NCBI RefSeq assembly: GCF_014635285.1
Contig: NZ_BMCR01000003.1
Coordinates: 1-64,000, forward strand
Direction of reading: 5' to 3'
Source: Stappia taiwanensis
GTDB lineage: Bacteria > Pseudomonadota > Alphaproteobacteria > Rhizobiales > Stappiaceae
DNA length: 64,000 nucleotides
A program made the translations under genes and the position numbers. The notes under the pieces are model-generated. The model made no database searches, was not told the DNA's origin, and saw only the letters and a program-made list of their open reading frames with translations. Numbering within the stretch: the first letter of the stretch is position 1; each line of letters opens with the position of its first letter. This document shows, piece after piece, positions 291 to 23,168 of this stretch.

Positions 291-320
291 GTCGGTCAGG
301 CTACGCCCACCCGCCCCTTT

Positions 321-429: not shown

Positions 430-888
430 TCAGGGCTGGGTGCGGCGTTGCATCACCAGTTTGGCGACCATCACCTGAACCGGTTCATCGCGCTGATTGA
501 GCGTCTTGATCCGCAACTTGACGATCCCGCGCTTCGGTGCGGATCGGGAGGGGATGGTTTCCAGCGCGGTGATGTCGAGCCTGAGGGTATCGCCAGGCAG
601 GACGGATTGAGGCCAGCGAAACTCCTCAAAGCCGGCGCCGACGATCCCGCCGGCGGGCCGGAAAGCGCTGCCGACGAGAAGGCGCATGGTCAGCGCCGCC
701 GTGTTCCAGCCACTGGCCACCAGCCGTCCGAAGAACGTATCGCGGGCGCGCTCATCGTTGAGATGAAACACTTGCGGATCGTATTGCGCGGCGAAGGTGA
801 CGATCTCTTCTTCGGTCACCGTGACGGATGGCGAACCGAAGGTCATGCCGGGGACGATCTCGTCGAGATAAAGCAGGGGTTCGCTCAT
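430..888 (-). CDS. MaoC-like (hot-dog fold) enoyl-acyl hydratase/dehydratase
   Basis: A 152-aa protein starting MSEPLLYLDEIVPGM at 888. Longer in-frame starts would run into the neighbouring SDR gene. It shows the MaoC pattern: a short N-terminal strand, FAAQYDPQVFHLNDERA near residues 32-48 with Asp and His at the hydratase active site (Y-D-P-x-x-x-H), and the FGRLVASGW segment. Family members hydrate or dehydrate (R)-3-hydroxyacyl thioesters. It lies 52 bp downstream of the FabG-like gene in the same operon, with a second dehydratase (FabZ-like) further upstream. It probably handles a beta-hydroxyacyl intermediate of the cluster's acyl chain. Which of the two dehydratases acts on which intermediate is unknown. 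Confidence 0.85.
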   Translation of the reverse strand: MSEPLLYLDEIVPGMTFGSPSVTVTEEEIVTFAAQYDPQVFHLNDERARDTFFGRLVASGWNTAALTMRLLVGSAFRPAGGIVGAGFEEFRWPQSVLPGDTLRLDITALETIPSRSAPKRGIVKLRIKTLNQRDEPVQVMVAKLVMQRRTQP

Positions 889-940
889 GCCACCTCCCGT
901 GGTTGCGTGTGTCCTTCGCCAGGTCTGGCCGGGCGCGGTG

Positions 941-1675
941 TCATCTTGCGAAGCCGCCATCGCAGCGGATGGTGGTCGACTGCACATAGCCCGGCTCGAG
1001 CAGGAACCGGACGGCTTGTGCGATTTCCTCCGGCTTGCCGATGCGCCTGAGGGCGGAGACATCCAGAAAGGGTTGAATCCGCTCCCGGGCGAGGGCGGCG
1101 GTCATGTCCGTTTCGATGAAGCCCGGGGCCACGGCATTGACGCCAATTCCCTTCGGGCCGAGCAATTCGCCAAGCCAGTGCGTGACGCCGATCAGCCCAC
1201 CCTTGCTGGCGCTGTAGGGAACCTGCCCGTCCGTGCCGTACACGCCCCCAAGCGAGGAGACCAGGACGATACGGCCCGCCGCCGATTGCTCCAGAAAGGG
1301 CAATGCGCCGAGGAGCAATCGCAAGGTTCCGGTCAGATTGGTCCGGATGACCGAGGAGATCTGATCCGCCTGCAAGGTGAAAAAGGGGCCATCCTTCGTC
1401 ATGCCCGCATTGCCGACCACGGCATCGATGCCGCCGAAACGGGCAGCGACGCGGGCCGGCAGCTCTCGCGTTTCCTGCGGGTCGGACATGTCGGCCTGAA
1501 ACACCTCCGCCTCGGCGCCGGCAGCTTGCACCGTCGCGGCGATCTGGTCGGCAGCACCGCGATCGCTGCGATAGCACAGGGCTAGCCGGTGGCCGCCTGC
1601 GGCCAGATGCTCGGCAATGGAGGCGCCAATGCCCCGGGAGGCACCGGTGATGAGAATGGTCGAGGGCGGGGTCAA
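941..1675 (-). CDS. 3-oxoacyl-ACP reductase (FabG-like SDR)
   Basis: A 244-aa classical short-chain dehydrogenase. The NADP-binding motif TGASRGIG is at about residues 11-18, followed by NAG (GNAGMTKDG), the catalytic Ser in LVSSLGG, YSASKGG with catalytic Tyr and Lys, and a C-terminal DGGF. It ketoreduces beta-ketoacyl-ACP. The best start is TTG at 1675, which overlaps the upstream stop as TTGA and puts the Rossmann strand in the usual place. The open frame extends further upstream, but that stretch overlaps the previous gene in another frame. All catalytic residues are present, unlike its partner at 1672-2385. Confidence 0.88.
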   Translation of the reverse strand: MTPPSTILITGASRGIGASIAEHLAAGGHRLALCYRSDRGAADQIAATVQAAGAEAEVFQADMSDPQETRELPARVAARFGGIDAVVGNAGMTKDGPFFTLQADQISSVIRTNLTGTLRLLLGALPFLEQSAAGRIVLVSSLGGVYGTDGQVPYSASKGGLIGVTHWLGELLGPKGIGVNAVAPGFIETDMTAALARERIQPFLDVSALRRIGKPEEIAQAVRFLLEPGYVQSTTIRCDGGFAR

Positions 1676-2385
1676 ATGCTCTGCTCCGTCAAACCGATGC
1701 CGACAGGAACGACCAGACCGGACATGGGAAGGTCTGCCTGAGCGAGCAGGCCGCACAAAAAGCCGGCAACCGAGGTCGCGGGCGACTTGCGAAACCGCGA
1801 GGCATAGACATTCGTGCGGTTGCGCGGGGTGCGCCACTGGTCCGCCGGAACCTGGTCGAATTCCAATTGAACCTCGAGGCAGTTGACGAGGACATCCATC
1901 CGGCGGATCTCCCGGGCAAAGCTCTTCACCGCGGCGCGCCGGGCCATCGTGTCGATGGGCGAGGTGGATATGGGAACAAGGTATCTGGCGCTTTGATCGG
2001 GGGTGATGACCCAGATCTGCCCGCCGCGATGGCGGGCGAGCAGGCGGCCGGCGGCCTGCAGCTGCATCAGGAACGACAGGAGTGCCGTTTCGTGAGCAAG
2101 CGCCAGCCGCTCGATGTCGTCGGCCGTGCGCGGCAGATCGTGCTCGATGGCGACCGGACCGAAGATGATCCGGTCGATGGGGGCTATCGACATGTCCCAG
2201 GCATCGAGCACGGCCACGGCAGACCCTTGCCGGTCGCCATCAGGGCGGCCGACAGGGGCTCCAGCGGGGGCGTGATCGCCAAGCTCATGGACGGCGACCG
2301 GCAGGCCGGATAGCTTCGCGCGAAGCGCGTCCATCAGGCTGTCGGGCTCGCCAATCAAGAGGACGCCGTTCATGCGCTTCGACAC
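1672..2385 (-). CDS. Degenerate SDR-like protein, probably catalytically inactive
   Basis: A 237-aa protein (GTG at 2385; ATG at 2373 is the alternative). Overall layout follows an SDR: an N-terminal Rossmann-like strand (GVLLIGEPDSLMDAL), a central strand GGQIWVI, and SPIDTMARRAAVKSFAREI, which aligns with the YxxxK helix region, followed by a VNCLEV strand. The glycine-rich cofactor motif is lost (GEPDS), and no Tyr-x-x-x-Lys pair is visible. It is translationally coupled to the intact ketoreductase (TTGA overlap) and lies 9 nt after the ACP stop. I infer a non-catalytic partner, for example a heterodimer subunit of the reductase. The family assignment is by pattern only. Confidence 0.6.
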   Translation of the reverse strand: MSKRMNGVLLIGEPDSLMDALRAKLSGLPVAVHELGDHAPAGAPVGRPDGDRQGSAVAVLDAWDMSIAPIDRIIFGPVAIEHDLPRTADDIERLALAHETALLSFLMQLQAAGRLLARHRGGQIWVITPDQSARYLVPISTSPIDTMARRAAVKSFAREIRRMDVLVNCLEVQLEFDQVPADQWRTPRNRTNVYASRFRKSPATSVAGFLCGLLAQADLPMSGLVVPVGIGLTEQSI

Positions 2386-2394
2386 CTGCGAGGT

Positions 2395-2700
2395 CTATTG
2401 TGCCGGGGCGGCGTCTTGCGGCACGCGCCGCGTCACGTAATCGGCAAGCGTGCCGATGGTGGCGCAGGTCTCCCGCAGCTCTTCGGGAGTCAGGTCCTGC
2501 CGGGGAAGCGAGAACTGCCGTTCGACGCCCACGACCAGTTCCAGCGTATCGACGGAGTCGAGCGAGAGCGGCGGCTCGCTCAAGGCGGTCGCCTCATTGA
2601 GATCCTTGAGTTCGATGCCGCTTGCGCCGAGATCGAGGCGCTCGATCAGAAGGTCCTTGCAGATGAAATCGACGATCTGGTCCCTGGTAATCGCAGTCAT
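2395..2700 (-). CDS. Acyl carrier protein
   Basis: A 101-aa carrier protein from ATG at 2700, preceded by a good ribosome site (GGAG, 8 nt upstream). The phosphopantetheine serine sits in PLSLDSVDTLELV, a clear DSxD/E-L motif, in a mostly helical protein of ACP size. The N-terminal TAITRDQIVDFICKDL matches helix 1. It lies between the FabZ-like dehydratase and the SDR pair, so it is likely the carrier for acyl-chain processing in this arm. The cluster has two further carrier proteins (6343-6600 and 19198-19464) with divergent attachment motifs, which implies separate jobs. The C-terminal tail (RVPQDAAPAQ) is unstructured. Confidence 0.9.
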   Translation of the reverse strand: MTAITRDQIVDFICKDLLIERLDLGASGIELKDLNEATALSEPPLSLDSVDTLELVVGVERQFSLPRQDLTPEELRETCATIGTLADYVTRRVPQDAAPAQ

Positions 2701-2802
2701 ATCGGTTGCTCCGTCTTGGTTCGGATCCTGAATGGTGCCGCGCGACGCTCCGTGCTCTGGCAACAATGTCGGCACCAATGTCGAGGCGTACGGCCTGGCT
2801 CG

Positions 2803-3282
2803 TTAGTCCGCCCACCAGAGTGTCAGTTCGGCGCGCATGCACAGAACGGACCCCCGTCGGATCGACGTCTTGAAGGAAAAGAAGCTGCCCGGGCCGGCAT
2901 TCCCTTGCGGGCCGGGATCACGCGTCAGCCGTGCCTGTGCGACCACGGTTTCACCCGGCAGCACCGGCGCCTTGAAGGCGGCATTGCCGGAGCCGACGAG
3001 ATAGGCCTTGACCGTCTTGCCGGCGCGCAAGCCCAGCAGCACGTTCGAGGTCTGGGCAGCCATTTCCAGAAGAAGCACCCCCGGGACAATCGGGTCCCCC
3101 GGAAAGTGACCGGCAAAGAACCAGTTTCCTTCATCGAACCGGTGGGTTCCGCGTGCGGTCAGGAGTTCGCTGTCGGCCTCCACATGGTCGACGAAGAGAA
3201 AAGGGTCCCGGTGGGCAAGCAGGTTTTTCACAGAAGCGGCGGACGCAGTGTCGGTCACGGTCCCGGTCTCGGGGGTAAGCAT
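2803..3282 (-). CDS. 3-hydroxyacyl-ACP dehydratase (FabZ/FabA-like hot-dog)
   Basis: About 159 aa, starting at ATG 3282, which has GGAG 6 nt upstream; ATG 3303 is possible. The FabZ active-site signature is intact: the catalytic His in GHFPGDP and the catalytic Glu in VPGVLLLEMAAQ. An earlier LLAHRDPFLFVDHV segment matches the FabZ substrate strand. It dehydrates (R)-3-hydroxyacyl-ACP to the trans-2-enoyl thioester. It lies in the minus-strand operon with an ACP, FabG-like and MaoC genes, which together with the KS/KS-beta pair across the divergent promoter make a nearly complete type II chain-building set. Confidence 0.9.
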   Translation of the reverse strand: MLTPETGTVTDTASAASVKNLLAHRDPFLFVDHVEADSELLTARGTHRFDEGNWFFAGHFPGDPIVPGVLLLEMAAQTSNVLLGLRAGKTVKAYLVGSGNAAFKAPVLPGETVVAQARLTRDPGPQGNAGPGSFFSFKTSIRRGSVLCMRAELTLWWAD

Positions 3283-3329
3283 CTGGCTCTCCGAATGTCT
3301 CATGCGTCCGCCGTTCCTCGTCTCGGGCC

Positions 3330-4550
3330 TCAGTTCTTCGCGGTTTCCTTCTGCTCGATGACCTCCCAGCCGTCGGTCATCGCCTTCACCAGGACAAAGT
3401 CCTTGTCGGATTCGCCCTCATTGGTCCGGGCAATGGGGCCGAGAAGGCCGTCGACCAGGTTGAGCTTCTGGATGCCCCGGCGGATCTTCTCGCGATCCTC
3501 GGCGACGGTTTCCGGCTTTGCCTCAACGCCCTCGTTTTCGATTGCCTGCTTGATCGCGTACATGTTTTCCCAGGCCGCCATGCTGTGAAGATCCGCATAG
3601 CCGCCGAACTGCGCCGTGGCGGCGGCCGCCGCGCGGGCGATATCGTTGATCGGGGCGAAGCTGGTCGGCACGATCATTCCGGCGGCCTGCGCGCCGCAGT
3701 CCTCGATCAACTGAGGGGTGGTGAGGCTGGTCAGCCCGATGACCGCAGGCGGGTTATAGTTCTGGCGCTCCATCTCGCGCAGCACGCCGCAGGCGGAGAA
3801 CGGGTGGGCGGAGATCACGACGATATCCGCATTCACGGCGGCCATTTCCTTGACCTGTTCGACGAAGTCCACATCGTCGACCAGCCACTTGGCCTGACCC
3901 TTCACCTCATAGCCGGCGAGCCCGGCGCGCTCCTTGATGATGTTGTACCAGGTCTGGTTGGAGTGAACGAAGTTCTCCTCAACGCCGGCGTAGACGGTCT
4001 TCAGCTCGGCGTTCTCCTGGCGCATCCACGCCCAGAGCGCGTCGTACATCTGGATCTCGTCGGGGATGTTGCGGAACGCCCAGTCGGAAATCCCGGCAAG
4101 ACCCTTGCGCATCGCCACATCGGCGAAAACCGGGATCCGGTGGCCGGTGTCGCTGTCATCGCCGGCCTGTTTCTGCAGACTTTCGAACACCGGCTTCAAC
4201 ACCGAGGAGCAGGTGGTGCCGATGACCGCCAGCCAATCTTCCTCTGCGAAAGACCCCAGCGTCGCAACGCCCAGTTCCGAGTCGCAGCGATCGTCCCGAT
4301 ACTCGATCTCGATGCGCGCCCGTGTGCCATCGGCCAGGCGAACCCCGCCGGCGCGATTGATGAGCGATCCGGCGGCGCGCATGGCGGCTTCACTGTTGTC
4401 GCCAAAGGGTTTCAGAACGCCGGACTTCGCGCCGAAGCCGCCGATCTTCACGACCCGATCGGCAGACCAGGCCGGCTGCGCACAAAGCATGGCGGCTGCG
4501 AGTCCGACAACTGCCCCCGTACAGGACTTCACTGCAGAGATCGTGATCAT
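3330..4550 (-). CDS. Periplasmic binding protein, LivJ-type (peripla_BP_6), orphan
   Basis: A 406-aa protein with a Sec signal peptide (hydrophobic stretch about residues 10-29, cleavage near AWSA-D). The mature part starts VVKIGGFGAKSGVLKPFG, the usual opening of branched-chain amino acid/amide binding proteins, and contains VIGTTCSSVLKPV and DIVVISAHPFSACG, typical of the two-lobe fold. No permease or ATPase of the Liv type is nearby. It is the first gene of the minus-strand arm, so it is probably transcribed with the FabZ-ACP-SDR-MaoC genes. Possible roles are sensing or scavenging a precursor, or binding the product in the periplasm; none is shown by sequence. Confidence 0.85.
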   Translation of the reverse strand: MITISAVKSCTGAVVGLAAAMLCAQPAWSADRVVKIGGFGAKSGVLKPFGDNSEAAMRAAGSLINRAGGVRLADGTRARIEIEYRDDRCDSELGVATLGSFAEEDWLAVIGTTCSSVLKPVFESLQKQAGDDSDTGHRIPVFADVAMRKGLAGISDWAFRNIPDEIQMYDALWAWMRQENAELKTVYAGVEENFVHSNQTWYNIIKERAGLAGYEVKGQAKWLVDDVDFVEQVKEMAAVNADIVVISAHPFSACGVLREMERQNYNPPAVIGLTSLTTPQLIEDCGAQAAGMIVPTSFAPINDIARAAAAATAQFGGYADLHSMAAWENMYAIKQAIENEGVEAKPETVAEDREKIRRGIQKLNLVDGLLGPIARTNEGESDKDFVLVKAMTDGWEVIEQKETAKN

Positions 4551-4601
4551 TGCTAAGCCTCTATTTTAAGGTTCACCCTTCGGGACTGAAATAGAATCAA
4601 T

Positions 4602-4631
4602 GCAAATCAAATAATACATAATCTGATTTGC
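4602..4631. promoter_or_regulatory. Inverted repeat in the divergent promoter region
   Basis: GCAAATCA (4602-4609) and TGATTTGC (4624-4631) form perfect 8-bp arms around a 14-nt AT-rich spacer. The site lies in the markedly AT-rich gap between the binding-protein gene (start 4550) and the exporter gene (start 4842), about 52 bp upstream of the minus-strand arm. It is a plausible operator for that arm. The motif CGTAGGTAAT (4661-4670) in the same gap recurs at 13107-13116. Confidence 0.45.
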
Positions 4632-4701
4632 GTATTTGGTGATGAGTTAAATCGTAATAGCGTAGGTAATGAAGAATCATGTATATGGTAAATTAGATCA
4701 A

Positions 4702-4740
4702 CTACCCTTTATGGTAGTAGGGATTGTCAATTAATATAAA
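4702..4740 (+). promoter_or_regulatory. Lux-box-like element with -10 box, promoter of the exporter-PKS arm
   Basis: CTACCCTTTATGGTAG (4702-4717) is a CT-N12-AG palindrome with 6-bp arms when the flanking A and T are included (4701-4718). This is the layout of lux/las boxes bound by LuxR-type regulators. TATAAA (4735-4740) follows at a distance that would put the box over the -35 position. A related element lies at 13047-13062 upstream of the hydrazine operon, and a LuxR-type HTH gene is in the cluster. Binding is inferred. Confidence 0.5.
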
Positions 4741-4841
4741 GAACTAGTGGATTTGCTACTATTGTTGGTAGTTGTCCGTCCTGTTTCCCTGATCAATTCT
4801 CTCAGCGATTTTCTATTTCGCAATTGCACCCTGGAGGGGTC

Positions 4842-6350
4842 ATGCCCGGCGTGCCCAAAGACACGGCCCCTGAACCGGGCGCCAACCACGATGCCCGCTC
4901 CGGTCCCGGGACCGGAGCCGTTTCCACGCAAGGGTCGCTCTGGATGCTTGCGGTCATTCTGTGCGGGCAGGCTCTGGCCGCCATGGATACGGCGATCGTC
5001 AACGTCGCGGCGCCGACCCTGCAGGCCGAACTCGGCCTGTCCGGCGCCTCCTTGCAACTGACCGTTGCCGGCTATGGCCTGGCCTATGCGTCCTTTCTGA
5101 TCACGGCGGCGCGGCTTGGGGATCTTTACGGCTACCGCCGCCTGTTCATGCTTGGCGTGACGGTTTTCACGATCTCGTCGCTGGTGTGCGGCACGGCCCA
5201 GACCGCTGGCGTCCTGATCGTCGGCCGCATCCTGCAGGGGCTTGGCGCGGCGCTTCTGGTGCCGCAAGTTCTCTCCCTGATCCAGCTGAGCTACAGCGGG
5301 GCCGCGAAGGCGCGCGCCGTCGGGCTCTACTCCATGATCCTGGGGCTGGGGGCCGCGGCCGGTCAGCTTCTGGGCGGGGTTATCGTCGACGTCGACCTGT
5401 GGTCGCTGAGCTGGCGCCCGGCGTTTTTGGTCAATATTCCCGTTGGCGTCGCGCTCATCGGTCTGGCGCTGTTTTTTCTGCCAAGGATTGTCGAGCGCCG
5501 ACGGGTCAGGCTCGATCTGGTCGGGGTGCTGGCGATCACCGGCGTTGCCCTCTGCGTGCTGATTCCGCTGACCTTCGGTCGGGAGTTCGGCTGGCCGCTC
5601 TGGTCGCTCGCGATGATCGGCGTCGGGCTGCTCGCACTCGTTGCCTTCTGGCGCTACGAGCAGGCGCTGTCGGGCCGGGGCGGCGCGCCGCTTCTCGACC
5701 CTGCCTTGCTGACCGTGCGGGGTGTGCCTCAGGGGCTGGGGATCGTCGCTGTCGGCTTCATCGGATACGGCGGCTGGCTTCTCACCGTTGCCCTTTATCT
5801 GCAGGTGGGCCTGGGCTTCAGCCCGTTGGTCTCCGGGGTGACCTTCGGTGCCTATGCGGCCGGCTTCGGAGTGTGGAACCTGTTCTGGTCGCGCCTGCCG
5901 GACCGGATCGTCGCCCATGCGCCGTCGGTGGCCCTGGCGACCTTGCTGTGTGCCAGTCTGGCATTCGGGTTTCTGGTCTCCGATGGCTGGTGGCATCCGG
6001 TCCTGGGGCCGCTTCTTCTGTTTGCCGCCGGCAGCGGTCATGGCCTGAGCTTCGGCACCAGCGTGCACCGCATGACCGCCGTCATCCCGTCTTCGTTCGC
6101 GGCGTCGCTGAGCGGCCTCGTCACCAGTTGCTCCCAGTTTTCCATCGTCACCGGAACCGCGCTCCTGGGCAGCGTCTATTTCGCGGTCGCAGCCAGCGTT
6201 CCGGACGGCGAAAACGGGTCTGGCGCGGGGATGGGCGCTGTGGCGTTCGCGGTCGCCATTGGCGCGGGGCTCGGCCTCATTCTCTCGGCCCGGCTGCCGT
6301 CCACTTCCTTGATTTCACAGATTAAAAGCGCGAGGCCCTCGGATGGTTGA
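4842..6350 (+). CDS. MFS drug exporter, DHA2 (14-TM EmrB/QacA) family
   Basis: A 502-aa membrane protein. ATG at 4842 is chosen because GGAGGGG lies directly upstream; the frame is also open from a TTG at 4824. Motif A-like LGDLYGYRRLFMLG follows TM2, and TM1 has DTAIVNVAAPTLQ, characteristic of the DHA2 group. The length fits 14 segments. It is the first gene of the plus-strand arm, overlapping the ACP gene by 8 bp (ATGGTTGA), so it is co-translated with the biosynthetic genes. The likely job is proton-driven export of the cluster product, which may also give self-resistance. Confidence 0.9.
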   Translation: MPGVPKDTAPEPGANHDARSGPGTGAVSTQGSLWMLAVILCGQALAAMDTAIVNVAAPTLQAELGLSGASLQLTVAGYGLAYASFLITAARLGDLYGYRRLFMLGVTVFTISSLVCGTAQTAGVLIVGRILQGLGAALLVPQVLSLIQLSYSGAAKARAVGLYSMILGLGAAAGQLLGGVIVDVDLWSLSWRPAFLVNIPVGVALIGLALFFLPRIVERRRVRLDLVGVLAITGVALCVLIPLTFGREFGWPLWSLAMIGVGLLALVAFWRYEQALSGRGGAPLLDPALLTVRGVPQGLGIVAVGFIGYGGWLLTVALYLQVGLGFSPLVSGVTFGAYAAGFGVWNLFWSRLPDRIVAHAPSVALATLLCASLAFGFLVSDGWWHPVLGPLLLFAAGSGHGLSFGTSVHRMTAVIPSSFAASLSGLVTSCSQFSIVTGTALLGSVYFAVAASVPDGENGSGAGMGAVAFAVAIGAGLGLILSARLPSTSLISQIKSARPSDG

Positions 6351-9611: not shown

Positions 9612-9644
9612 TCATGACCCCTCATCAGACTGCGGAGGCGTTCA

Positions 9645-13173: not shown

Positions 13174-13246
13174 ATAACAAAACCTGTGATTGCATTGGGC
13201 CGCTATTGTTTCGATGGGAACGTGCCGAACTTTGGGGAGAGCAGCC

Positions 13247-15612: not shown

Positions 15613-17660
15613 TGAGAGTTTTCAAGCTGAAGGACCAGTCGCTTCTGCCCGCGTTCGGGATCCAGATGGCTTCGGTCGATGCCTTTTCCGGAACGGCCGA
15701 CGTCGGTGCTGGCTATGGGGTGATCGAACCTGAGGGTGTCACCGCCTTTCACCGCCACGATGAATGCGAATTGTTCGCGATCCTGGAAGGCGATGGCGTG
15801 GTGGAGGCCGACGGGGGGGACAGGATTGCCGTCGGTCCGGGCGATCTCGTCGCGATTTCCCCGTTCGACAAGCATGTGTTGCGCAATACCGGATCCGGCA
15901 AACTCGTTTTCGCAACCGCCTATTGGCGCGACGCGAAAACCGCAGTGACGGAAGCGGAGAAGGGGGCTTCGGCGCAGGAGGAGGCGACGGATCCGGCCGC
16001 CGAGGCGCCGTGTTTCGTCTTTTCCACGCCGCCGACGCCCAATGGCGATCTGCATCTGGGCCACCTGTCCGGACCGTATTTCGGGGCGGATGTCTTTGCC
16101 CGGTTCCAGCGATTGCTCGGCAAGACCGCCTTCCACATCACCGGGAGTGACGATTTCCAGAGCTACGTGATCGCCAAGGGGCGGCAGCTGAACAAGACGC
16201 CGCAAGAGGTCGCCGACCATTTCAGCCGCGAGATCACCGAGACCCTCGACCTTCTCGACGTTCAGATCGACCAGTTCACGCTGACCTCCCATGCACCGGA
16301 CTATGAGCGTCAGGTGAAGGCATTTTTCCAGAGCGTGGCCGCATCCGACAGCGTTCAGCGCCGAGCCGACAGCGCGGCCTTCGATCCGACGACGGATGCC
16401 TATCTGTATGAGTGTGACATCAAGGGGCGTTGCCCGACCTGCGGATCTGGATCCGGCGGCAACATCTGCGAGGAATGCGGCGAGCCGAACCTGGCCTATG
16501 ACATGCTGGACCCGGTTTCGACCCAGACAGGGGCAACGCCCGTGGTCCGCCCCTGCGAGCGCTATACGATCACCCTGAATGACTTTGCCGATCATATCCT
16601 CGGCGCAATGCGGGAAAGCAAGGCCAGCGCACGCCTTCAGGCTCTGGCCGAGCGGGTGCTTGCGCGTGAGGCGTTCCACGTTCCGATCACCCACCCGCAG
16701 ACCTGGGGGATTTCGCCGACCGATCCGGACATGGCCGATCAGGTCTTCTGGGTCTGGCCCGAGATGTCTTTCGGCTTTCTCTATGGGATCGAGGCGCTCG
16801 GTCAGCGGACCGGACACGACTGGAAGGCGCTGGAGCCGCAGGACAATTGGAAGTTTGTCCATTTCTTCGGCTACGACAACAGCTTCTACCACACGATCCT
16901 CTACCCCGCGCTCTACAAGGCCGCCTTCCCCGATTGGCACGCGGACATCGAGTATCACGTCAATGAATTCCTGTGCCTTGAGGGCGATAAATTCTCCACC
17001 AGCCGGCAGCGGGCTGTCTGGGGCAAGGAGGTTCTGACCCCCGAGACGGTCGATTGCGTCCGCTTCCACCTTGCGCTGACGCGCGGCGAGGTCGAGCGCA
17101 CGAATTTCTCGGTGAGCGCCTTGCAGGCCACAAACCGGGAGCTGATCGCGGAGTGGCAGGGCTGGCTTCAGGCCCTTGGAGACGAGGTGCTCGAGCGCCA
17201 TGACGGCGTGGCGCCGGACGCGGGCGACTGGAGTGTGGATCACCAGGCGTTCCTGCAGCTGCTGGAGCAGCATCGCCAGCAGATCGAAACCTGCTACGGC
17301 TCGGCCGGCTTTTCGCTGAACAAGGCCGCCGAGACGATCCGCACCCTGGTGCGCGATACCATCAGGTTTGCCAAGGGCAATCGGCATCTGGCGGGCCACG
17401 CCGCCGCTGCGGATCGCCACAGAACGACGCTCGCCCTGCAACTGGCGGCAGCGCGCCTTCTCGCCGATGCCACCGCGCCTTTGACGCCGCGTTTCTCCGA
17501 AGCCTTGAGAAAGGGGCTGGGGCTTGATCCGGCCAGCGTCTGGCCGCGGACCATCGAGCTCTTGCCCGCCGGCAATCGGGTCACCTTGAGCGACCAGCGC
17601 TTCTTTTCCGAGAAGGTGGGCGAGAACGTCGCGCCGATCAAAGTGACGGATGCAGCCTGA
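15612..17660 (+). CDS. Cupin-methionyl-tRNA-synthetase fusion, N-N bond-forming hydrazine synthetase
   Basis: A 682-aa fusion. Residues 1 to about 108 are a cupin with metal ligands His47, His49, Glu53 and His88. After a Glu/Ala-rich linker, residues from about 133 resemble class I methionyl-tRNA synthetase: HLGH at 148-151 (HIGH motif), a zinc knuckle (CPTCGSG...CEECG), and KFSTS (KMSKS motif). A housekeeping MetRS lacks the cupin. This architecture is the hallmark of enzymes such as Spb40 and Tri28, in which the MetRS-like part activates glycine to acylate N6-hydroxylysine and the cupin drives rearrangement to an N-N bond. ATG 15612 overlaps the previous stop. Confidence 0.95.
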   Translation: MRVFKLKDQSLLPAFGIQMASVDAFSGTADVGAGYGVIEPEGVTAFHRHDECELFAILEGDGVVEADGGDRIAVGPGDLVAISPFDKHVLRNTGSGKLVFATAYWRDAKTAVTEAEKGASAQEEATDPAAEAPCFVFSTPPTPNGDLHLGHLSGPYFGADVFARFQRLLGKTAFHITGSDDFQSYVIAKGRQLNKTPQEVADHFSREITETLDLLDVQIDQFTLTSHAPDYERQVKAFFQSVAASDSVQRRADSAAFDPTTDAYLYECDIKGRCPTCGSGSGGNICEECGEPNLAYDMLDPVSTQTGATPVVRPCERYTITLNDFADHILGAMRESKASARLQALAERVLAREAFHVPITHPQTWGISPTDPDMADQVFWVWPEMSFGFLYGIEALGQRTGHDWKALEPQDNWKFVHFFGYDNSFYHTILYPALYKAAFPDWHADIEYHVNEFLCLEGDKFSTSRQRAVWGKEVLTPETVDCVRFHLALTRGEVERTNFSVSALQATNRELIAEWQGWLQALGDEVLERHDGVAPDAGDWSVDHQAFLQLLEQHRQQIETCYGSAGFSLNKAAETIRTLVRDTIRFAKGNRHLAGHAAAADRHRTTLALQLAAARLLADATAPLTPRFSEALRKGLGLDPASVWPRTIELLPAGNRVTLSDQRFFSEKVGENVAPIKVTDAA

Positions 17661-19201
17661 TGACGATCAAGGCCTGGCCACATGAGACCGCGCTTCTCAA
17701 CGCTCTGTTCAAGCGTCGATGGAGCGCGGAGCACAAGCTCAGCGTCTATCGGTTTGGCGCCGAAGCTGAGGCCATCCCCCTGTCGGACCTGCAGGGGATG
17801 GTGGAAGGCGTGGCCGCCTGGCTGACATCCCTCGGCCTCGAGCAGCACGATCGGATCGGCATTTTATCGTCCAACCGGCTCGAATATGTCCTTCTCGATC
17901 TTGCCGCCCTCCGCTTGGGGCTCGTGACCGCGTGTTTCGACCCCGCGTCCTTTGCGCAAGAGACCGATCTGGCGGAAAAATACGGTCTGAAGCGGTTGTT
18001 TCTGGACGCGCGGCTTGCAAGCCCGCAATCGGGCGCAGACCACGTCTTGCCCATCGAGCGGGTGCTGGAGGAAGCGGGCAAGGAGCGGGACGGGGACAGT
18101 GCCGAGCCGGTTGCCTATGCCCCGGAGGATATCAGCACCATCAAGTTCACCTCCGGGAGCACGGGGATCGCCAAGGGGCTTGGCGCCACCGTCGGCAGCA
18201 TTGAGCAATCCCTTCGCTCGACCCAGAAGCTGTTTTCGCACGGGCCGGGCGATACGCTCCTTGTGTTCCTGCCCTTGTCCTTGCTGCAGCAACGCTACTG
18301 GGTCTATTCGGCCATTCTCTATTGGCACGATATCGTGATCACCGACTCCCGGCTCGCGCTGGAGGCGATCCAGCGGGAGCATCCCACCGTGATCATGGGG
18401 GTGCCCGCCTTCTTCGACACCTTGAAGGAATACATCGAGATGTCGGCGGGCGCTGGCTCGCCGCGTGCTTCGGCGATCGATGTGTTGGGCGACCGCCTGC
18501 GCTATCTCTGGACCGGGTCCGCCGCCGCGCGGCCCGACACGCTGGAATTCTTCGAGGTCACCTGCGGGGTGCCGATCTTCGAAGGCTACGGTCTCAACGA
18601 GACCTGCATCACCACCAAGAACCACCCCGGCGCCCACAAGCGCGGCAGTGTCGGCAAGCCGCTGGACGGCGTTCGGGTCGAGATCGACGCGGAGGGCCAG
18701 ATCCGTGTCTTTCGCGATCACCCGGTGAACACCCGCTATCTGTTCGCGCCGGAGGGCGCCTCGGAGAAGGTGTTCATGGCCGATGGATCGGTGGCGACCG
18801 GCGATCTCGGCTACATCGATGACGAGGGCTTTCTCTATGTGATGGGCCGCGCCGATGACGTGGTCGTGCTTGCCAACGGCAAGACGGTCTCGGTGCGCCC
18901 GCTTGAAGAGGCCATCCTCAGGCTGCCTGAGGTGAAACAGGCGATGGTGTTCGGCACCGGGCGCCCCGTTCTGGCCTGCCTGGTCTGTCCCGTGCCGGGG
19001 ACCGATCCGGACGTGGTCAAGCGCGCCGTCCAGCAAGCCACGCGCGGCTTCGGATCCGAAGCCGTCGAACTGGTGATCCCCGTCGCCGATGGCTTTTCGG
19101 AGAGCGCGGGCCTTCTGACCTCGCAGGGAAAACTGCGCCGCCGGGCCATCACCGAACATTATGATCAGGAAATTCAACAGGCGTATGGAGACCAGTCATG
19201 A
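17660..19201 (+). CDS. Acyl-AMP ligase (ANL superfamily), likely loads the hydrazine acid onto a carrier
   Basis: A 513-aa adenylating enzyme with the usual core motifs: FTSGSTGIAKG (P-loop, A3), EGYGLNE (A5), ATGDLG (A7), GRADDVVVLANGK (A8), and a C-terminal TSQGKLRRR with the catalytic Lys (A10). ATG 17660 overlaps the cupin-MetRS stop (TGATG), and the end overlaps the carrier gene by 4 bp. In triacsin and azaserine pathways a comparable enzyme activates hydrazino- or hydrazonoacetic acid for a free-standing carrier protein, the role assigned here. It lacks condensation or carrier domains, so it is not an NRPS module. Confidence 0.88.
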   Translation: MTIKAWPHETALLNALFKRRWSAEHKLSVYRFGAEAEAIPLSDLQGMVEGVAAWLTSLGLEQHDRIGILSSNRLEYVLLDLAALRLGLVTACFDPASFAQETDLAEKYGLKRLFLDARLASPQSGADHVLPIERVLEEAGKERDGDSAEPVAYAPEDISTIKFTSGSTGIAKGLGATVGSIEQSLRSTQKLFSHGPGDTLLVFLPLSLLQQRYWVYSAILYWHDIVITDSRLALEAIQREHPTVIMGVPAFFDTLKEYIEMSAGAGSPRASAIDVLGDRLRYLWTGSAAARPDTLEFFEVTCGVPIFEGYGLNETCITTKNHPGAHKRGSVGKPLDGVRVEIDAEGQIRVFRDHPVNTRYLFAPEGASEKVFMADGSVATGDLGYIDDEGFLYVMGRADDVVVLANGKTVSVRPLEEAILRLPEVKQAMVFGTGRPVLACLVCPVPGTDPDVVKRAVQQATRGFGSEAVELVIPVADGFSESAGLLTSQGKLRRRAITEHYDQEIQQAYGDQS

Positions 19202-19464
19202 GCGAGCTTGAAACCACCATACGGCATCACATCGCGGCGACGGCGAAGCCCGCTCAGATCGCGCCGGACAGCATCGACCTTGACGTCGATCTCAAGCAGG
19301 AGTTCGGCATTTCGTCCATGAAGATGATCTTGCTGATGACGACCCTTTGCAAGGAGCTCGGGGTCACCTTGTCGAGCTTCGATGAAAGAGATCTGGCAGG
19401 CATCAACAGCGCGGGCGATCTGATCCGCGCCTTCGAAAAGGCCCGGGAGGGGGTGGCATCATGA
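19198..19464 (+). CDS. Carrier protein for the hydrazinoacetyl unit (FGISSM motif)
   Basis: An 88-aa carrier protein whose attachment motif reads EFGISSMKMILLM, with the second Ser the likely phosphopantetheine site. The departure from D-S-L marks it as a specialised carrier, unlike the ACPs at 2395 and 6343. It overlaps the AMP-ligase upstream and the GNAT downstream by 4 bp each, so all three are made together. It probably holds the hydrazino acid while the GNAT and dehydrogenase act on it. Confidence 0.85.
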   Translation: MSELETTIRHHIAATAKPAQIAPDSIDLDVDLKQEFGISSMKMILLMTTLCKELGVTLSSFDERDLAGINSAGDLIRAFEKAREGVAS

Positions 19465-20081
19465 CCTGGAAAACCGTGTTCAGTCAAACGCTTGAAAACG
19501 AGCGTGTTCTCATGCGGCCCTTGCAGGCTTCGGATCGCGCCGAGCTTGCCAAGATCGTGTTCGATCCGGATATCTGGCGCTATTTCGTCGCCCGGATCGA
19601 CAGCGAGGAAGACCTCGACCGGTTCGTGGAAACCGGGCTGGCCGACATCGCGGCGGGCCGGCGCGCGGTCTTCATGATCTTCGACAAGAAAACCGGAAAG
19701 CTGGCCGGCAGCATGTGTTTCGGCAATCTCGCCGAGGCGGATCTGCGGCTTGAAATCGGCTGGTCCTGGCTGTCCAGGGACTATCGCGGCGCGGGCCTCA
19801 ACCGCTACGCCAAGCTCGCCCTCCTGACCCATGCCTTCGAGGCGCTGGGCTGCGCCCGTGTCGAGTTCAAGACCGACGTGTTGAACGAGCAGGCCCGCAA
19901 GGGGCTGCGCAACATCGGCGCCACCGAGGAAGGCGTGTTGCGCAGTTTCAATTTCATGCCGGGAGGTCGGCGCCGGGATGCGATCTTCTATTCGATTCTC
20001 GCGGATGAATGGCCCCGGGTGAAGGCGTTGCTGCTCGGGCAGGACCGTGTCGAGGGTGCCCGCGATGTCCAGCCTGCCTGA
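19461..20081 (+). CDS. GNAT-family N-acyltransferase
   Basis: A 206-aa RimJ/RimL-type GNAT: the N-terminal strand LENERVLMRPLQASDRAEL, then SWLSRDYRGAGLNRYAK as the acyl-CoA loop (R-G-A-G variant of Q/RxxGxG/A), then CARVEFKTDVLNEQARKGL, typical of this subfamily. It is embedded between a carrier protein and a C45-type hydrolase. In triacsin biosynthesis a GNAT succinylates the hydrazine nitrogen of a carrier-bound hydrazinoacetyl group, and the same protection step is proposed here. The acyl donor cannot be read from sequence. Confidence 0.85.
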   Translation: MTWKTVFSQTLENERVLMRPLQASDRAELAKIVFDPDIWRYFVARIDSEEDLDRFVETGLADIAAGRRAVFMIFDKKTGKLAGSMCFGNLAEADLRLEIGWSWLSRDYRGAGLNRYAKLALLTHAFEALGCARVEFKTDVLNEQARKGLRNIGATEEGVLRSFNFMPGGRRRDAIFYSILADEWPRVKALLLGQDRVEGARDVQPA

Positions 20082-21141
20082 CGTCATTGCGCTTGATGGC
20101 TGCCCTCTGACCCGGGGGCAGCAGCACGGCCGGCAGGCGGCCGGCCGCATCGCTGCGTTCCTTGACGATGGTTTGGCCCGTCTCGACACCTTCCTTGGGC
20201 CGGACATTCGGTTGTCGGATCTTGGCCAGGACATCGCCGCCTATGGCGCGGCGATCGAACGGGAGACGCCGGAGCTCTACCGGGAAATCGCCGGGTTGAG
20301 CGAAGGCGCCGGGATCTCGATGGACGAGGCCGTGCTCTTGCAGGTCCGCAGGGAACTGGCCGGGTTCAGCCGGTTCAACACCTCCGGCGACTGCACGACC
20401 TTCGCCCGCACGGGCGAGGGGGCGGTGATCGGCCAGACGGTGGACCTTGCCGGCGATCTCGACGATCAGGTCACCCTCCTGAAGGTTCGAGACGCGGCAA
20501 GCGGGCACCGAGCGCTGGTGATGAGTTTCACCGGGCTGCTCGGCTATCTCGGTGTCAACGATCGCGGTCTGGCCGTTGGCCTCAATCTGGTGCTTGCCGG
20601 CGACTGGCGGCCCGGGTTGCCGCCCTATCTGGCGATCCGCCACCTGCTCGATACCTGCGGCTCGGTGGAAGAGGCCATCGCCTGCCTTCAGGAGCTCGAT
20701 CTTGCCAGCTCGCGCTGCTTCATGCTGTGCGACGGCAAGGCCGCCGCCTTTGTCGAGGCGATGGAGGGGAAGCTGGCGGTGCATCGCGGCGCGGAACTGA
20801 CCCACACCAATCATTTCCTCGATCCCGCTTTCGCGCCGCATGACGAACTGAACATCTTTGCGCAAAACGGCTCGCGCAAGCGGTTTGAAGCCTGCCGGGA
20901 CTGGCTGGCCTCTCATGACGCCAATCGGGAGCCGGGAAGTTATTTCGACCTGTTCAGCACGGAACCGGTCCGGGTGAAGGACAGCGGCAACAGGGCCGTT
21001 GAAAAAACGGTGGCCTCCGTTGTCCTCGATCCGGTGAACAGGAGCCTTCACGTCCGGGCGGGCGATCCATTCGGCGCACCGACCGCGTCCTTCGACATGG
21101 TCGGCTGGGGAGAGAACAGACATGAATGTGCAAACGCCTGA
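20065..21141 (+). CDS. C45-family Ntn-hydrolase / acyl transferase (isopenicillin N acyltransferase-like)
   Basis: A 358-aa protein from ATG 20065 (GAGG 9 nt upstream), overlapping the GNAT by 17 bp. NTSGDCTTFAR places Cys110 as the autocatalytic, N-terminal nucleophile, at nearly the same position as Cys103 of isopenicillin N acyltransferase. GAVIGQTVDL after it and GLLGYLGVNDRGLAVGLNLV are typical of the AAT domain. Members cleave or transfer amides. Placed after a GNAT, it could remove the protecting acyl group or move it to another acceptor, a protect/deprotect pair. It could also form the final amide. Confidence 0.82.
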   Translation: MSSLPDVIALDGCPLTRGQQHGRQAAGRIAAFLDDGLARLDTFLGPDIRLSDLGQDIAAYGAAIERETPELYREIAGLSEGAGISMDEAVLLQVRRELAGFSRFNTSGDCTTFARTGEGAVIGQTVDLAGDLDDQVTLLKVRDAASGHRALVMSFTGLLGYLGVNDRGLAVGLNLVLAGDWRPGLPPYLAIRHLLDTCGSVEEAIACLQELDLASSRCFMLCDGKAAAFVEAMEGKLAVHRGAELTHTNHFLDPAFAPHDELNIFAQNGSRKRFEACRDWLASHDANREPGSYFDLFSTEPVRVKDSGNRAVEKTVASVVLDPVNRSLHVRAGDPFGAPTASFDMVGWGENRHECANA

Positions 21142-22324
21142 TCGCAAGGCCGGCCACGCGCAAGATGGTGACTGGCTCGCGGCGGATCGCGCCGACCTGC
21201 CGTTTTTCGGCGACGAGCACCAGGCGCTGACGCGGCGCCTGTCCGACTGGGCAAGAGACGCGGAGCGTGAGATCGCCGAGGCGCTGGATCTGCCGCCGTC
21301 CGAGGCGGTCCGCCGGCTCACCCGCCTTCTGGGACAGGGCGGATGGTTTTCGCTGGCGCTCAAAGCCCCGGCGGACACCCGCAGCCTCTGCCTCATTCGC
21401 GAGGCCTTTGCCTATCGCCACGATCTTCTCGACTATGCGTTTTCCATTCAGATCCTCGCAGCCCTGCCGTTGGCTCTGTGGGGCAGCGACAGGCACCGCG
21501 CCGAGATCCTGCCCCGGTTGTGTTCCGGCGAGGAGATCGGGGCCTTCGCGCTCACCGAGCGTGACAGCGGCTCGGATATCTCCGCCATCGGTCTGCAGGC
21601 CGTGGAAACCGAGGGCGGTTACCGCCTGACCGGTCAGAAGAGCTGGATCGCCAACGCGGATATTGCCGATCAGGTCGTCGTCCTGACGCGGACGGGTGCG
21701 GGGACGGGGCCGCTTGGCCTGACGCTTTTCGTCGCCGACACCAGGTCCGAGGGCTGCCGGGTTGAGCCGGTTGAGCTGATTGCGCCCCGGCCCTTTGGCG
21801 ACATTGCATTTGATGATTTCTTCGTTCCCGCCGACCGGCTTGTCGGCGATAAGGGAATGGGGCTTGCGGTTGCCATCGACACGCTGGAGCGCTGCCGGAT
21901 CACCGTCGGTGCGGCCGCGAACGGCTTTGCCCGCCGGGCGGTGGTCGAAGCCGGCGGCCACGTGCTGGAGCGCCGCGCAACCGGGCGCCGTCTTGCGGAT
22001 ATTCCTGCCGTGCGCGGCATCCTGACGAGAATGACCGCCGCGATGCACCTGTCGCAACTGACCGTGACCGAAGCGGCCTGGGAGATGGACAGGGGCGGCG
22101 CGCGCAAGAGCCCGCTGTCCTCACTCGCCAAGCTGCATGCCACCGAGGCGGCCCAGGGTATCGTCGACCAATGTGTGCAATTGCACGGTGCCGCCGGGCT
22201 GGTGGCCGGATCCCTACCGGAAAACCTCTATCGTCAGATCCGCTCCCTGCGGCTTTATGAGGGGGCGTCGGAAGTGCAGGAAGACATCCTGAGCGAGGCG
22301 GTCATGGCCGGAAGCCTTCGCTAG
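21122..22324 (+). CDS. Acyl-CoA-dehydrogenase-like flavoenzyme
   Basis: A 400-aa protein with GGGGAG upstream of ATG 21122 and a 20-bp overlap with the C45 gene. Typical ACAD features: FALTERDSGSD (FAD/substrate strand), GQKSWIANADIAD, and LRLYEGASEVQ, in which the Glu before Gly is the usual catalytic base. Relatives in N-N pathways oxidise carrier-bound hydrazines to hydrazones, and here the likely substrate is the (acylated) hydrazinoacetyl carrier. An alternative is alpha,beta-desaturation of the acyl chain. Nothing in the sequence separates the two. Confidence 0.87.
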   Translation: MNVQTPDRKAGHAQDGDWLAADRADLPFFGDEHQALTRRLSDWARDAEREIAEALDLPPSEAVRRLTRLLGQGGWFSLALKAPADTRSLCLIREAFAYRHDLLDYAFSIQILAALPLALWGSDRHRAEILPRLCSGEEIGAFALTERDSGSDISAIGLQAVETEGGYRLTGQKSWIANADIADQVVVLTRTGAGTGPLGLTLFVADTRSEGCRVEPVELIAPRPFGDIAFDDFFVPADRLVGDKGMGLAVAIDTLERCRITVGAAANGFARRAVVEAGGHVLERRATGRRLADIPAVRGILTRMTAAMHLSQLTVTEAAWEMDRGGARKSPLSSLAKLHATEAAQGIVDQCVQLHGAAGLVAGSLPENLYRQIRSLRLYEGASEVQEDILSEAVMAGSLR

Positions 22325-22337
22325 AAGGCGCTGCCTG

Positions 22338-23168
22338 ATGCAGGATCGCGTCAGCAAGCAGCCCGGCACTGGTGGCCGCGTGAGTGGCGGATGGTCGCTG
22401 TCGGGCGGATTTTCGCCGCTCCGGGGGCGGCGCCCATTCGTGCGGGTGGCACTGCTCGATCTGGGCGATCTGGCACCTTTGCTGACTGCACGCATGATGG
22501 CCGATCTCGATCCGCAGGAGCGGCGGCGGGCCGGGATGCTGCGGTCTGCCGCCTTGCGCGCCGAGTATGTGCTTGCCCACGGGCTCCTGCGGCATCTGTT
22601 GAGCTGGACCTTTCAGGTGCCCGCCCGGTCCTGGGCGATTTCCGCCGACGCCGCCGGCCGGCCGCATATCGTCTCGCCCCACCCGCATCGGGATGTCGCG
22701 GTGTCCCTGTCCCATACGCGCGGGTTCGTGGCAGCCGCAATCGCCCGTGGCTTCAGGGTCGGTATCGATGCGGAACGGCGGGACCCGTCGCGGTCCCAGC
22801 TCGATATCGCCGACCGCTTCTTCGCGTCGCATGAGGCGGCGCGCTTGCGGTCCTTGCCGCAGCACCGGACGAACTCGGAATTCACCGCCCTGTGGACCTT
22901 GAAGGAAGCCTTTGTGAAGGCCATCGGCAAGGGCTTCGCGCAACCGCTGAAGAGCTTCTCCTTCGACGGCGCGACGCCTGCGAGGGTCGCGTTTCACGAT
23001 GCGGAACTGGGGGCGGCGGAGCGCTGGCGCTTCGTCTCCGGTGCGTTCGGCAGCGTGCATGTCTCGCTTGCCTGCGAGCCGACGACGATGGAGCGACCCC
23101 GCCTGCCCATGGAGGCGGTTGCTTTGGCATCCGGACGGCTTCCGCCCATCGGCAGACGCATAGTGTAG
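22338..23168 (+). CDS. 4'-phosphopantetheinyl transferase, Sfp type
   Basis: A 276-aa protein with VSLSHTRG, the Mg-binding VGIDAERRD (Gly-Ile-Asp-x-Glu), and WTLKEAFVKAIGKG, the complete Sfp-type signature. It converts apo-carrier proteins to the holo form with CoA. It closes the operon, and the three carrier proteins of the cluster are its obvious substrates. AGAAGG lies about 9 nt before ATG 22338. A cluster-encoded PPTase suggests self-contained production. The following hairpin separates it from the next, oppositely oriented operon. Confidence 0.93.
   Translation: MQDRVSKQPGTGGRVSGGWSLSGGFSPLRGRRPFVRVALLDLGDLAPLLTARMMADLDPQERRRAGMLRSAALRAEYVLAHGLLRHLLSWTFQVPARSWAISADAAGRPHIVSPHPHRDVAVSLSHTRGFVAAAIARGFRVGIDAERRDPSRSQLDIADRFFASHEAARLRSLPQHRTNSEFTALWTLKEAFVKAIGKGFAQPLKSFSFDGATPARVAFHDAELGAAERWRFVSGAFGSVHVSLACEPTTMERPRLPMEAVALASGRLPPIGRRIV

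Follow-up and report, generated by a model that had tools for sequence, protein, structure and literature searches.

We analyzed a 64,000-nucleotide stretch of the genome of the marine bacterium Stappia taiwanensis (hereafter the window), which holds at positions 430-23168 a cluster of 23 genes predicted to make a hydrazine-derived polyketide. The genome is 4.42 Mb in 20 contigs, and open reading frame and start calls showed all 23 frames to be open. A Pfam family scored above its cut-off for 21 of the 23 proteins, the match of the ketosynthase-beta (KS-beta) protein covering only part of the domain. The genes fall into two blocks, at 430-11902 and 13253-23168, with a gene for a 68-residue LuxR-type helix-turn-helix (HTH) protein and a gap of low GC content between them. 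We propose, as the probable reading, that these blocks are the two modules of one pathway, in which a hydrazonoacetyl (HYAA) starter primes a short polyketide extension and a ferritin-like diiron enzyme (FDO) acts as oxidase of the terminal nitrogen, with a diazo group as the likeliest result. Every enzyme named in an initial annotation of this DNA was present in an open frame of the cluster (open reading frames, starts and Pfam). Four further members had not been listed there, namely a protein resembling short-chain dehydrogenases/reductases (SDR), a substrate-binding protein, an alpha/beta hydrolase and the LuxR-type protein.

Block 2 lies entirely on the plus strand. It begins with a predicted L-lysine N6-hydroxylase (13253-14536; PF13434, 343.4 bits), in the role of DobG, AzsL and Spb38, for which lysine is the presumed substrate, followed by a DAO-type FAD oxidase (14533-15612; PF01266, 101.8 bits) corresponding to DobF, AzsM and Spb39. 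The third gene (15612-17660; PF07883 and PF09334) encodes a cupin/methionyl-tRNA-synthetase-like protein (cupin-MetRS), a candidate hydrazine synthetase in the role of DobE, AzsN and Spb40. It scores far under the NCBIfam cut-offs for methionyl-tRNA synthetase (MetRS), and is 48-50% identical to homologues in four azaserine-like loci, with 50% identity over 98% to that of S. meliloti. Next come an AMP-dependent acyl-carrier ligase (17660-19201; PF00501, 159.3 bits; DobC/Tri29 role), a carrier protein with its Ser kept (19198-19464; PF00550, 28.6 bits; DobQ/Tri30 role) and a GNAT acyltransferase, 69% identical to its S. meliloti homologue, for N-succinylation (19461-20081; PF13302, 68.1 bits; DobB/Tri31 role). 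A C45 peptidase-family hydrolase with its nucleophile Cys kept is assigned to desuccinylation (20065-21141; PF03417; NF040521, 216.1 bits against a cut-off of 85; DobA/AzsT role), and an acyl-CoA-dehydrogenase-like flavoenzyme (ACAD), 46-51% identical to azaserine-type homologues, to the oxidation of hydrazine to hydrazone (21122-22324; PF00441 and PF02770; DobM/Tri22 role). The block ends with a phosphopantetheinyl transferase (PPTase; 22338-23168; PF01648, 63.9 bits).

A HYAA starter cassette is known from azaserine, triacsin and dob. Pfeifer et al. select clusters with this cassette by the families PF02770, PF13434, PF01266, PF00501, PF13302 and PF03417, and their biochemistry leads from lysine and glycine through succinylated hydrazinoacetate to carrier-bound hydrazonoacetate (PMC12154687; this paper, like PMC12154649, PMC13061610 and PMC10445470 below, is cited from part of its text). 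All six families occur in this neighborhood, together with the cupin-MetRS and a carrier. The order of the genes from the lysine N-hydroxylase to the C45 hydrolase is that of azaserine-type clusters on Streptomyces plasmids and on S. meliloti pSmeSM11b, in which a nonribosomal peptide synthetase (NRPS) gene, absent from the window, lies between the cupin-MetRS and ligase genes and the ACAD gene is found elsewhere in the cluster. The eight genes from the hydroxylase to the ACAD, judged by family content and order, appear to be a complete HYAA starter cassette. The initial annotation had set the ligase, carrier, GNAT, C45 and ACAD apart as tailoring enzymes. Since gene order and Pfam content match those of the cassette, these five are better regarded as the loading and oxidizing half of starter formation.

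By homology to the characterized pathways, from which each reaction of this module is taken, lysine would be N6-hydroxylated by the N-hydroxylase, the cupin-MetRS would link the hydroxylated lysine to glycine through an N-N bond, and the DAO-type oxidase would cleave off hydrazinoacetic acid. This would be succinylated by the GNAT protein and loaded by the ligase on the carrier as succinylated hydrazinoacetate. Oxidation of the carrier-bound unit by the ACAD and removal of succinate by the C45 hydrolase would then give the hydrazonoacetyl-carrier.

Block 1 provides the candidate chain-building enzymes, from both strands. On the plus strand, the ketosynthase (KS-alpha, or KS; 6597-7787; PF00109 and PF02801) retains Cys-His-His in seven of seven rows compared, is 51% identical to a B. 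stagnalis protein and has 9s5h and 6kxd as its best solved matches. It is followed by a short KS-beta/chain-length-factor-like protein of 299 residues (7784-8683; PF00109, 34.7 bits, for the partial match noted above), in which Gln replaces the active-site Cys in all seven rows; the window protein also lacks the catalytic His motifs. A type II polyketide synthase (PKS) of the KS/chain-length-factor kind is defined by an active KS and a KS-beta with an active-site Gln, and both were found here, the KS-beta being unusually short. As the initial annotation had stated, two acyl carrier proteins (ACPs) are encoded besides the starter carrier: ACP2 immediately upstream of the KS (6343-6600, plus strand; PF00550, 46.8 bits; Ser kept) and ACP1 on the minus strand (2395-2700; PF00550, 22.8 bits against a cut-off of 20.8; DS motif kept). 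The minus strand also carries a FabG-type 3-ketoacyl-ACP reductase (KR) with Ser, Tyr and Lys intact (941-1675; PF00106/PF13561), a FabZ-like 3-hydroxyacyl-ACP dehydratase with its active-site His and Glu (2803-3303; PF07977, 56.1 bits) and a MaoC-like hydratase/dehydratase (430-888; PF01575, 54.3 bits). The last of these has a D..H motif in the three rows compared and is 71% identical to its Pseudovibrio counterpart, and no counterpart was found on the Burkholderia-type loci described below. The SDR-like protein (1672-2385, minus strand) gave no Pfam or NCBIfam match; its putative SDR identity is accompanied by the absence of the catalytic Tyr, the position four residues before the Lys being without Tyr in the rows compared. 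It is kept in Pseudovibrio and in the Burkholderia type, and may be a non-catalytic partner of the KR. An alpha/beta hydrolase on the plus strand (8673-9611), with no Pfam match and with NCBIfam alpha/beta hydrolase matches below cut-off, keeps its Ser, Asp and His motifs and is a candidate releasing thioesterase. Catalytic motifs are thus retained, in the rows compared, by the KS, KR, FabZ, three carriers, C45 hydrolase, alpha/beta hydrolase and FDO.

Because no other condensing enzyme was identified among the 23 genes, the KS is the sole candidate for joining the starter to the chain. With the short KS-beta, it would condense the hydrazonoacetyl starter with malonyl-ACP at least once, after which the KR and FabZ and/or MaoC could reduce and dehydrate the beta-keto group, the alpha/beta hydrolase would free the chain and the two major facilitator superfamily (MFS) proteins would export it. 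Cyclization of the hydrazone on the assembly line to a pyridazinone or pyrazole-type ring, with the FDO oxidizing the ring or a different amine, would be another use of the same enzymes, and one that we consider quite unlikely. Attack of the free hydrazone NH2 on the extended thioester can form a six-membered ring, and two proteins, the SDR-like one and MaoC, are without an assigned role, but no cyclase-like gene was identified among the cluster genes (Pfam, NCBIfam).

The union of a HYAA cassette with a type II PKS is also the layout of the triacsin pathway (PMC10445470), and the product could accordingly be a hydrazone-ended polyene to which a third nitrogen is added, or in which the hydrazone is kept, with the FDO acting elsewhere on the chain. 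This we judge very improbable. Two azaserine-like-cluster queries for a Tri13/AzsD-type ketosynthase III (KSIII) gave best E values of 1.5 in the window and 5.4 in the Pseudovibrio contig, no nitrite-forming or Tri17-type family was recognized among the 23 genes (Pfam), and an FDO is present and ranks among the most conserved proteins of the cluster. Membership of the triacsin family was set aside on the first two of these results. Membership of the azaserine family was likewise set aside, as no NRPS (AzsO) condensation domain occurs among the 23 genes (Pfam), and two queries for the azaserine-type heme-oxygenase-like diiron oxidase (HDO; AzsE) reached E 2.9 at best in the window.

The FDO (9645-10577, plus strand; PF11583, 100.3 bits) is of the AurF type, and is the candidate N-oxidase of the terminal hydrazone. 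Its residues E87, E122, H125, E181, H208, E212 and H215, which correspond to six metal ligands and a seventh His, are kept in nine of nine rows; they were paired with the reported Dob3 residues from their order and their spacing inside the motifs, without an alignment. In the initial annotation the product had been called unreadable from sequence. For chain length this stands. The end group can be narrowed, since the dob diazo cluster likewise has an FDO next to a HYAA cassette, making a diazo or other oxidized N-N group likelier than a hydrazine. We suggest that the FDO oxidizes the terminal hydrazone nitrogen and that a diazo group is the most likely outcome, because the characterized FDO that stands beside a HYAA cassette makes one. 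Should a double bond come to lie beside the diazo carbon, closure to a pyrazole is plausible. The extension from the hydrazone end through a C-C bond, the number of rounds, the order of FDO action and release, and the diazo outcome have less support than the starter cassette.

Scanning genome contigs with the FDO alignment, a search restricted to what its two exact peptide patterns could catch, returned 18 loci. Two were of the window type (S. indica and Pseudovibrio), and a second type comprised six (those of B. stagnalis, B. sp. SRS-46 and B. ubonensis, and of metagenome-assembled genomes (MAGs) of Ramlibacter, Burkholderiales and Telmatospirillum). Nine were Chromohalobacter loci with the FDO only, and one was a second Ramlibacter FDO. 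In an unrooted tree, the window type and the second type fell in a clade of nine rows (99/96) that included this second Ramlibacter FDO, nested with Telmatospirillum; the only other cluster match on its stretch was a thioesterase. Next to the clade were the Chromohalobacter FDO and then that of B. glumae, which adjoins pabB and a component II gene, with CmlI and AurF outside. A single clade for all hydrazine-cluster FDOs was rejected as stated (approximately unbiased (AU) test, p 2.9e-7). The window FDO is 28% identical to CmlI and lies outside the CmlI branch. Dob3 is reported to be 47% identical to CmlI (PMC12154687), and the placement of our FDO relative to Dob3 derives from this reported identity. 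As a separate observation, the nine Chromohalobacter FDOs show 44-46% identity, and at the one of the nine loci that was opened (7479-10936) the gene adjoins a chorismate-binding/class IV aminotransferase fusion of the PabB-PabC type, which suggests N-oxygenation of p-aminobenzoate by the FDO in these halophiles.

This kinship bears on the end group. With the same starter and chain, the FDO might instead insert oxygen, in a four- or six-electron oxidation, to leave an azoxy group, an N-nitroso or N-nitro hydrazone or a nitramine-type end. The neighbors of the FDO clade in the tree are not CmlI, the reported relative of Dob3, but FDOs whose genes adjoin pab genes, a setting to be expected for an arylamine N-oxygenase like AurF, and this speaks for the alternative. 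Hydrazinoacetate is, moreover, converted to a nitramine in N-nitroglycine biosynthesis, by a cluster reportedly without an FDO, and oxidation of hydrazines to azoxy groups by FDOs is cited in the dob paper (PMC12154687). The characterized FDO beside a HYAA cassette, however, performs a two-electron oxidation of hydrazone to diazo (PMC12154687), and we regard oxygen insertion as unlikely, though to be taken seriously.

The cluster recurs in other genomes. Counterparts of all 23 proteins were found in Stappia indica at 84-100% identity, and of 22 in an uncultured Pseudovibrio, a member of another genus, at 50-81% on one contig of 44.1 kb, where the two blocks are differently arranged and still together; the PPTase had no match on that contig. 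Because the genes recur in this way, the cluster represents more than a chance grouping. The FDO is 80% identical in Pseudovibrio. The FDO and the LuxR-type protein are 100% identical to those of S. indica, the other cluster proteins differing by 1-7% and the PPTase, at 84% identity, by 16%. The distribution is narrow: the cupin-MetRS (E up to 1e-60) and the FDO (E up to 1e-20) occur in the same three of 87 Stappiaceae genomes, own genome included. A sample of 385 genomes of the class had the cupin-MetRS in two, and one of 398 genomes of the phylum had the FDO in two; each pair includes the own genome, the other match being at 30% and 29% identity, respectively.

Base 1 of the window is the start of the contig and cuts a neighboring hydrolase gene, which raises the alternative that the cluster is silent or degraded, or that essential genes lie beyond the contig end. 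That all 23 frames are open, with 22 kept in another genus and catalytic motifs retained, argues against this, as does the S. indica contig, which extends 462 bases further at the maoC edge and is still inside the same hydrolase frame; we hold this alternative to be highly improbable. Both Stappia assemblies stop within 462 bases of each other inside this hydrolase gene (window 1-430; S. indica locus 1-900), and a repeat at the two assembly ends is possible.

The second type of locus differs in how hydrazine is formed. A further B. stagnalis plasmid locus (L008), found apart from the FDO scan, has counterparts of 15 of the 23 window proteins by blastp among 20 proteins compared, and of MFS2 and the LuxR-type HTH by tblastn (17 of 23). 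By the same searches it had none for the MaoC, binding protein, lysine N-hydroxylase, DAO, cupin-MetRS or PPTase. Its additional genes encode a 623-residue protein without a Pfam match, FdxA, an HDO, a class II aldolase and a thioesterase; the HDO was not seen on the Telmatospirillum stretch, nor the aldolase on those of B. ubonensis, Burkholderiales and Telmatospirillum. Distant homologues of the 623-residue protein occur on seven Streptomyces plasmids, and in the two that were opened a ferredoxin gene is followed by a KinJ-like gene and then by kin/fzm-type genes, whose cassette roles we in part presume. In eight such sequences R467, M468, H474, H511 and R521 are invariant, with exactly the spacing of KinJ residues R497, M498, H504, H541 and R551. 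Two other KinJ residues are unmatched: there is no invariant Cys for C468, and no invariant Arg at the spacing of R570, R546 and R549 being nearby (KinJ residues from PMC12154649). On these residues the protein is assigned as KinJ-like, and KinJ enzymes make a hydrazine from nitrite and an amino acid with a ferredoxin (PMC12154649).

A KinJ-like gene is present in five of the six second-type genomes, with no match in the Burkholderiales MAG, and the B. stagnalis query found none in the window's own genome or in those of S. indica and Pseudovibrio. The three Burkholderia genomes have the KS/FDO line with its own ligase, GNAT, C45 and ACAD, and a KinJ-type heme hydrazine former in place of the lysine/cupin-MetRS route. 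The cupin-MetRS was not found in them; in these three and the Burkholderiales MAG its best match is at 25-27%, starts at residue 124 at the earliest and coincides with the strongest MetRS gene. The Ramlibacter MAG holds both systems, as a different contig carries a full cupin-MetRS (36%) together with genes for a hydroxylase and an NRPS-type protein; besides its second FDO, this MAG also has a second, more distant KinJ-like match. The Telmatospirillum MAG has, on another contig (4981-8605) and away from the KinJ-type cluster, a MetRS-like gene that lacks the cupin part and is flanked by genes for a 2-oxoglutarate/Fe (2OG-Fe) dioxygenase and a lysine/ornithine hydroxylase, and the stretch possibly belongs to another N-N or hydroxylamine pathway; this second gene rules out the statement that all second-type genomes but one have ordinary MetRS only. 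At 1e-20 the DAO matched nothing in the six genomes, and lysine-hydroxylase-like genes (34-40%) occur in five of them, away from the cluster.

Because two unrelated hydrazine formers precede homologous ligase, GNAT, C45, ACAD, KS and FDO proteins, the comparison supports a hydrazino acid as the true input of the shared downstream line. That KinJ and AzaEFG may be interchangeable sources of hydrazine has already been raised, with mention of Burkholderia clusters (PMC12154649); what we add is one specific pair of clusters with most of the downstream genes in common. We also noted another mix of the two hydrazine systems in Streptomyces sp. NBC_01244 (11006-17947), where ferredoxin and KinJ-like genes are followed by homologues of the GNAT (58%) and C45 (43%) genes.

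The two parts of the cluster may have different histories. The window-type and second-type sequences group together in none of the trees of the GNAT, C45, ACAD and ligase. Constraining the Stappiaceae and Burkholderia-type rows together gave p values, uncorrected for four tests, of 0.030 for the GNAT, 0.045 for the ACAD, 0.066 for the ligase and 0.171 for the C45 hydrolase. A joint history is disfavored for the GNAT and ACAD and not clearly so for the ligase and C45, which suggests, with moderate support, that the cassette and the PKS/FDO part came from different sources.

A more far-reaching reading would join these results. A Gram-negative type II line, primed by HYAA and ending in a Pab-branch FDO independent of Dob3, would make a vinylogous diazo compound or its pyrazole, and would have been coupled to lysine/glycine cupin-MetRS chemistry in Stappiaceae and to nitrite-dependent KinJ-type heme chemistry in Burkholderia, with hydrazinoacetate as common currency. 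We offer this reading tentatively, as one that may well not hold in full.

Several observations weigh against the two-module diazo pathway or its extension to both types. The FDO need not perform Dob3 chemistry, because it is distant from CmlI and its nearest outside relatives that were opened adjoin pab genes. The KR and dehydratases would remove the ketone that stabilizes an alpha-diazoketone, and Dob2 is a type I PKS, whereas the window encodes a type II system. No Tri13/AzsD-type transferase was found in the window to shift the starter between carriers. The cluster stands at a contig end, so that further genes may lie past the maoC edge. Finally, the swap of hydrazine formers is clean only in the three Burkholderia genomes, given the two systems of Ramlibacter and the cupin-less MetRS-like gene of Telmatospirillum.

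The remaining genes of the cluster concern transport and regulation. A periplasmic substrate-binding protein of the branched-chain amino acid type (3330-4550, minus strand; PF13458) is 80.5% identical over 375 residues in Pseudovibrio, 99% in S. indica and 58% in the Ramlibacter MAG. Few proteins of the cluster are conserved as well, yet none of the 23 genes encodes a permease or ATPase to go with it, and sensing or self-protection is a possible role. Both MFS genes are on the plus strand: MFS1, a predicted efflux transporter (4824-6350; PF07690, with EmrB/DHA2-like matches below cut-off), and MFS2 (10670-11902; PF07690), with a 51-52% homologue in the Burkholderia loci. The LuxR-family regulator (12319-12525, minus strand; PF00196, 67.1 bits) has no sensor domain and is 64% identical to part of an autoinducer-binding LuxR that adjoins the B. 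stagnalis cluster. GC content falls to 56% between 12 and 14 kb, all other 2-kb steps from 0 to 24 kb being at 62-68%, and a scan of 11.8-13.4 kb found two promoter-like sites (1.0 in shuffles) and five terminator-like ones (1.9 in shuffles).

Genes 3' of position 23168 resemble those of a polyamine-type ABC transporter and seem not to belong to the cluster. Past them, on the minus strand at 29770-34079, genes for an FAD oxidoreductase (with a partial lysine/ornithine monooxygenase match), an MFS transporter and a class V aminotransferase stand in a row. Glycosyltransferase, WbqC, sugar epimerase/dehydratase and C-methyltransferase genes on the plus strand at 38239-47624 are likely a surface-sugar locus, and a reading frame of 3174 residues on the minus strand at 54431-63955, without a Pfam match at E 1e-5, would encode a giant uncharacterized protein.

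The view of the initial annotation that an alphaproteobacterium here encodes a hydrazine-derived, PKS-type product not yet described is supported. No described product for the Stappia, Pseudovibrio or Burkholderia hydrazine/diazo clusters appeared in listings of the open-licence PMC literature. Pfeifer et al. report 129 HYAA-cassette clusters, spread over Actinobacteria and Proteobacteria and including five further architectures (PMC13061610/PMC12154687). The words Stappia, Pseudovibrio, Burkholderia and 'type II' are not in the main text of PMC13061610, and the architecture described here may be among those five. The kind of cluster is known and the combination apparently new, though published logic (dob, and KinJ interchangeability) largely anticipates it. 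Reported natural products with a diazo group number fewer than 30, and oxidases that form the group are very few. The cluster would be a Gram-negative source of a second FDO, in which hydrazone oxidation may have arisen independently of Dob3 and which is joined to separate small type II PKS proteins, not to a multidomain type I enzyme. Paired with the KinJ-type clusters, it makes the interchangeability of KinJ and AzaEFG directly testable, as the same hydrazino acid would reach homologous carriers.

Among known systems, the dob cluster of Nocardia ninae combines the cassette, a PKS and an FDO to make 4-diazo-3-oxobutanoate and diazoacetone (PMC12154687; PMC13061610). The window resembles it in having the HYAA cassette in full, a ketosynthase to form C-C bonds, an MFS exporter, a regulator, and an FDO whose seven ligands are of the same residue types, with matching spacing inside the motifs. 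It differs in that dob has a type I PKS of thioesterase, ketosynthase, acyltransferase and ACP domains (TE-KS-AT-ACP), whereas the window has a KS, a short KS-beta, free ACPs, a KR, FabZ, MaoC and a free hydrolase, and in that the window FDO is not close to CmlI, the reported relative of Dob3. The triacsin pathway, compared by description without tri sequence (PMC10445470), also feeds a type II PKS from a HYAA cassette; the window adds an FDO and lacks a match to the Tri13-type KSIII and, among the 23 genes, a recognizable nitrite or Tri17-type gene. Azaserine-like loci on Streptomyces plasmids (L012, L059 and L060) and on S. meliloti pSmeSM11b carry the same cassette, its members being 32-69% identical, with an NRPS and an HDO oxidase in place of the KS/KS-beta and FDO of the window. 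Homologues of the KS, KS-beta and FDO were found in none of 11 cupin-MetRS plasmid loci compared (14-18 kb flanks; 26 records found). Two further cupin-MetRS loci were seen: in Mesorhizobium sp. 131-3-5 (11829-17001), a lysine N-hydroxylase, a partial DAO match and a cupin-MetRS share a plasmid region with nif genes and show no match to other HYAA-cassette genes, perhaps marking a different hydrazine pathway, and on a Rhizobium rhizogenes plasmid (12606-17016) a lysine N-hydroxylase, an FAD oxidase and a cupin-MetRS (38%) stand near Rieske, DapA-like and TauD-like genes. A further system is that of the KinJ/FzmP heme hydrazine-forming clusters, those of Burkholderia included (PMC12154649). There a KinJ-family protein and a ferredoxin gene replace the lysine N-hydroxylase, DAO and cupin-MetRS, and several of the clusters add an HDO, an aldolase and a thioesterase. 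The partial Ramlibacter and Burkholderiales MAG contigs have fewer window genes in common, but B. stagnalis, B. sp. SRS-46, B. ubonensis and the Telmatospirillum MAG share with the window the KS, KS-beta, hydrolase, FDO, carriers, ligase, GNAT, C45 and ACAD, and the Burkholderia also the KR, FabZ and SDR-like protein.

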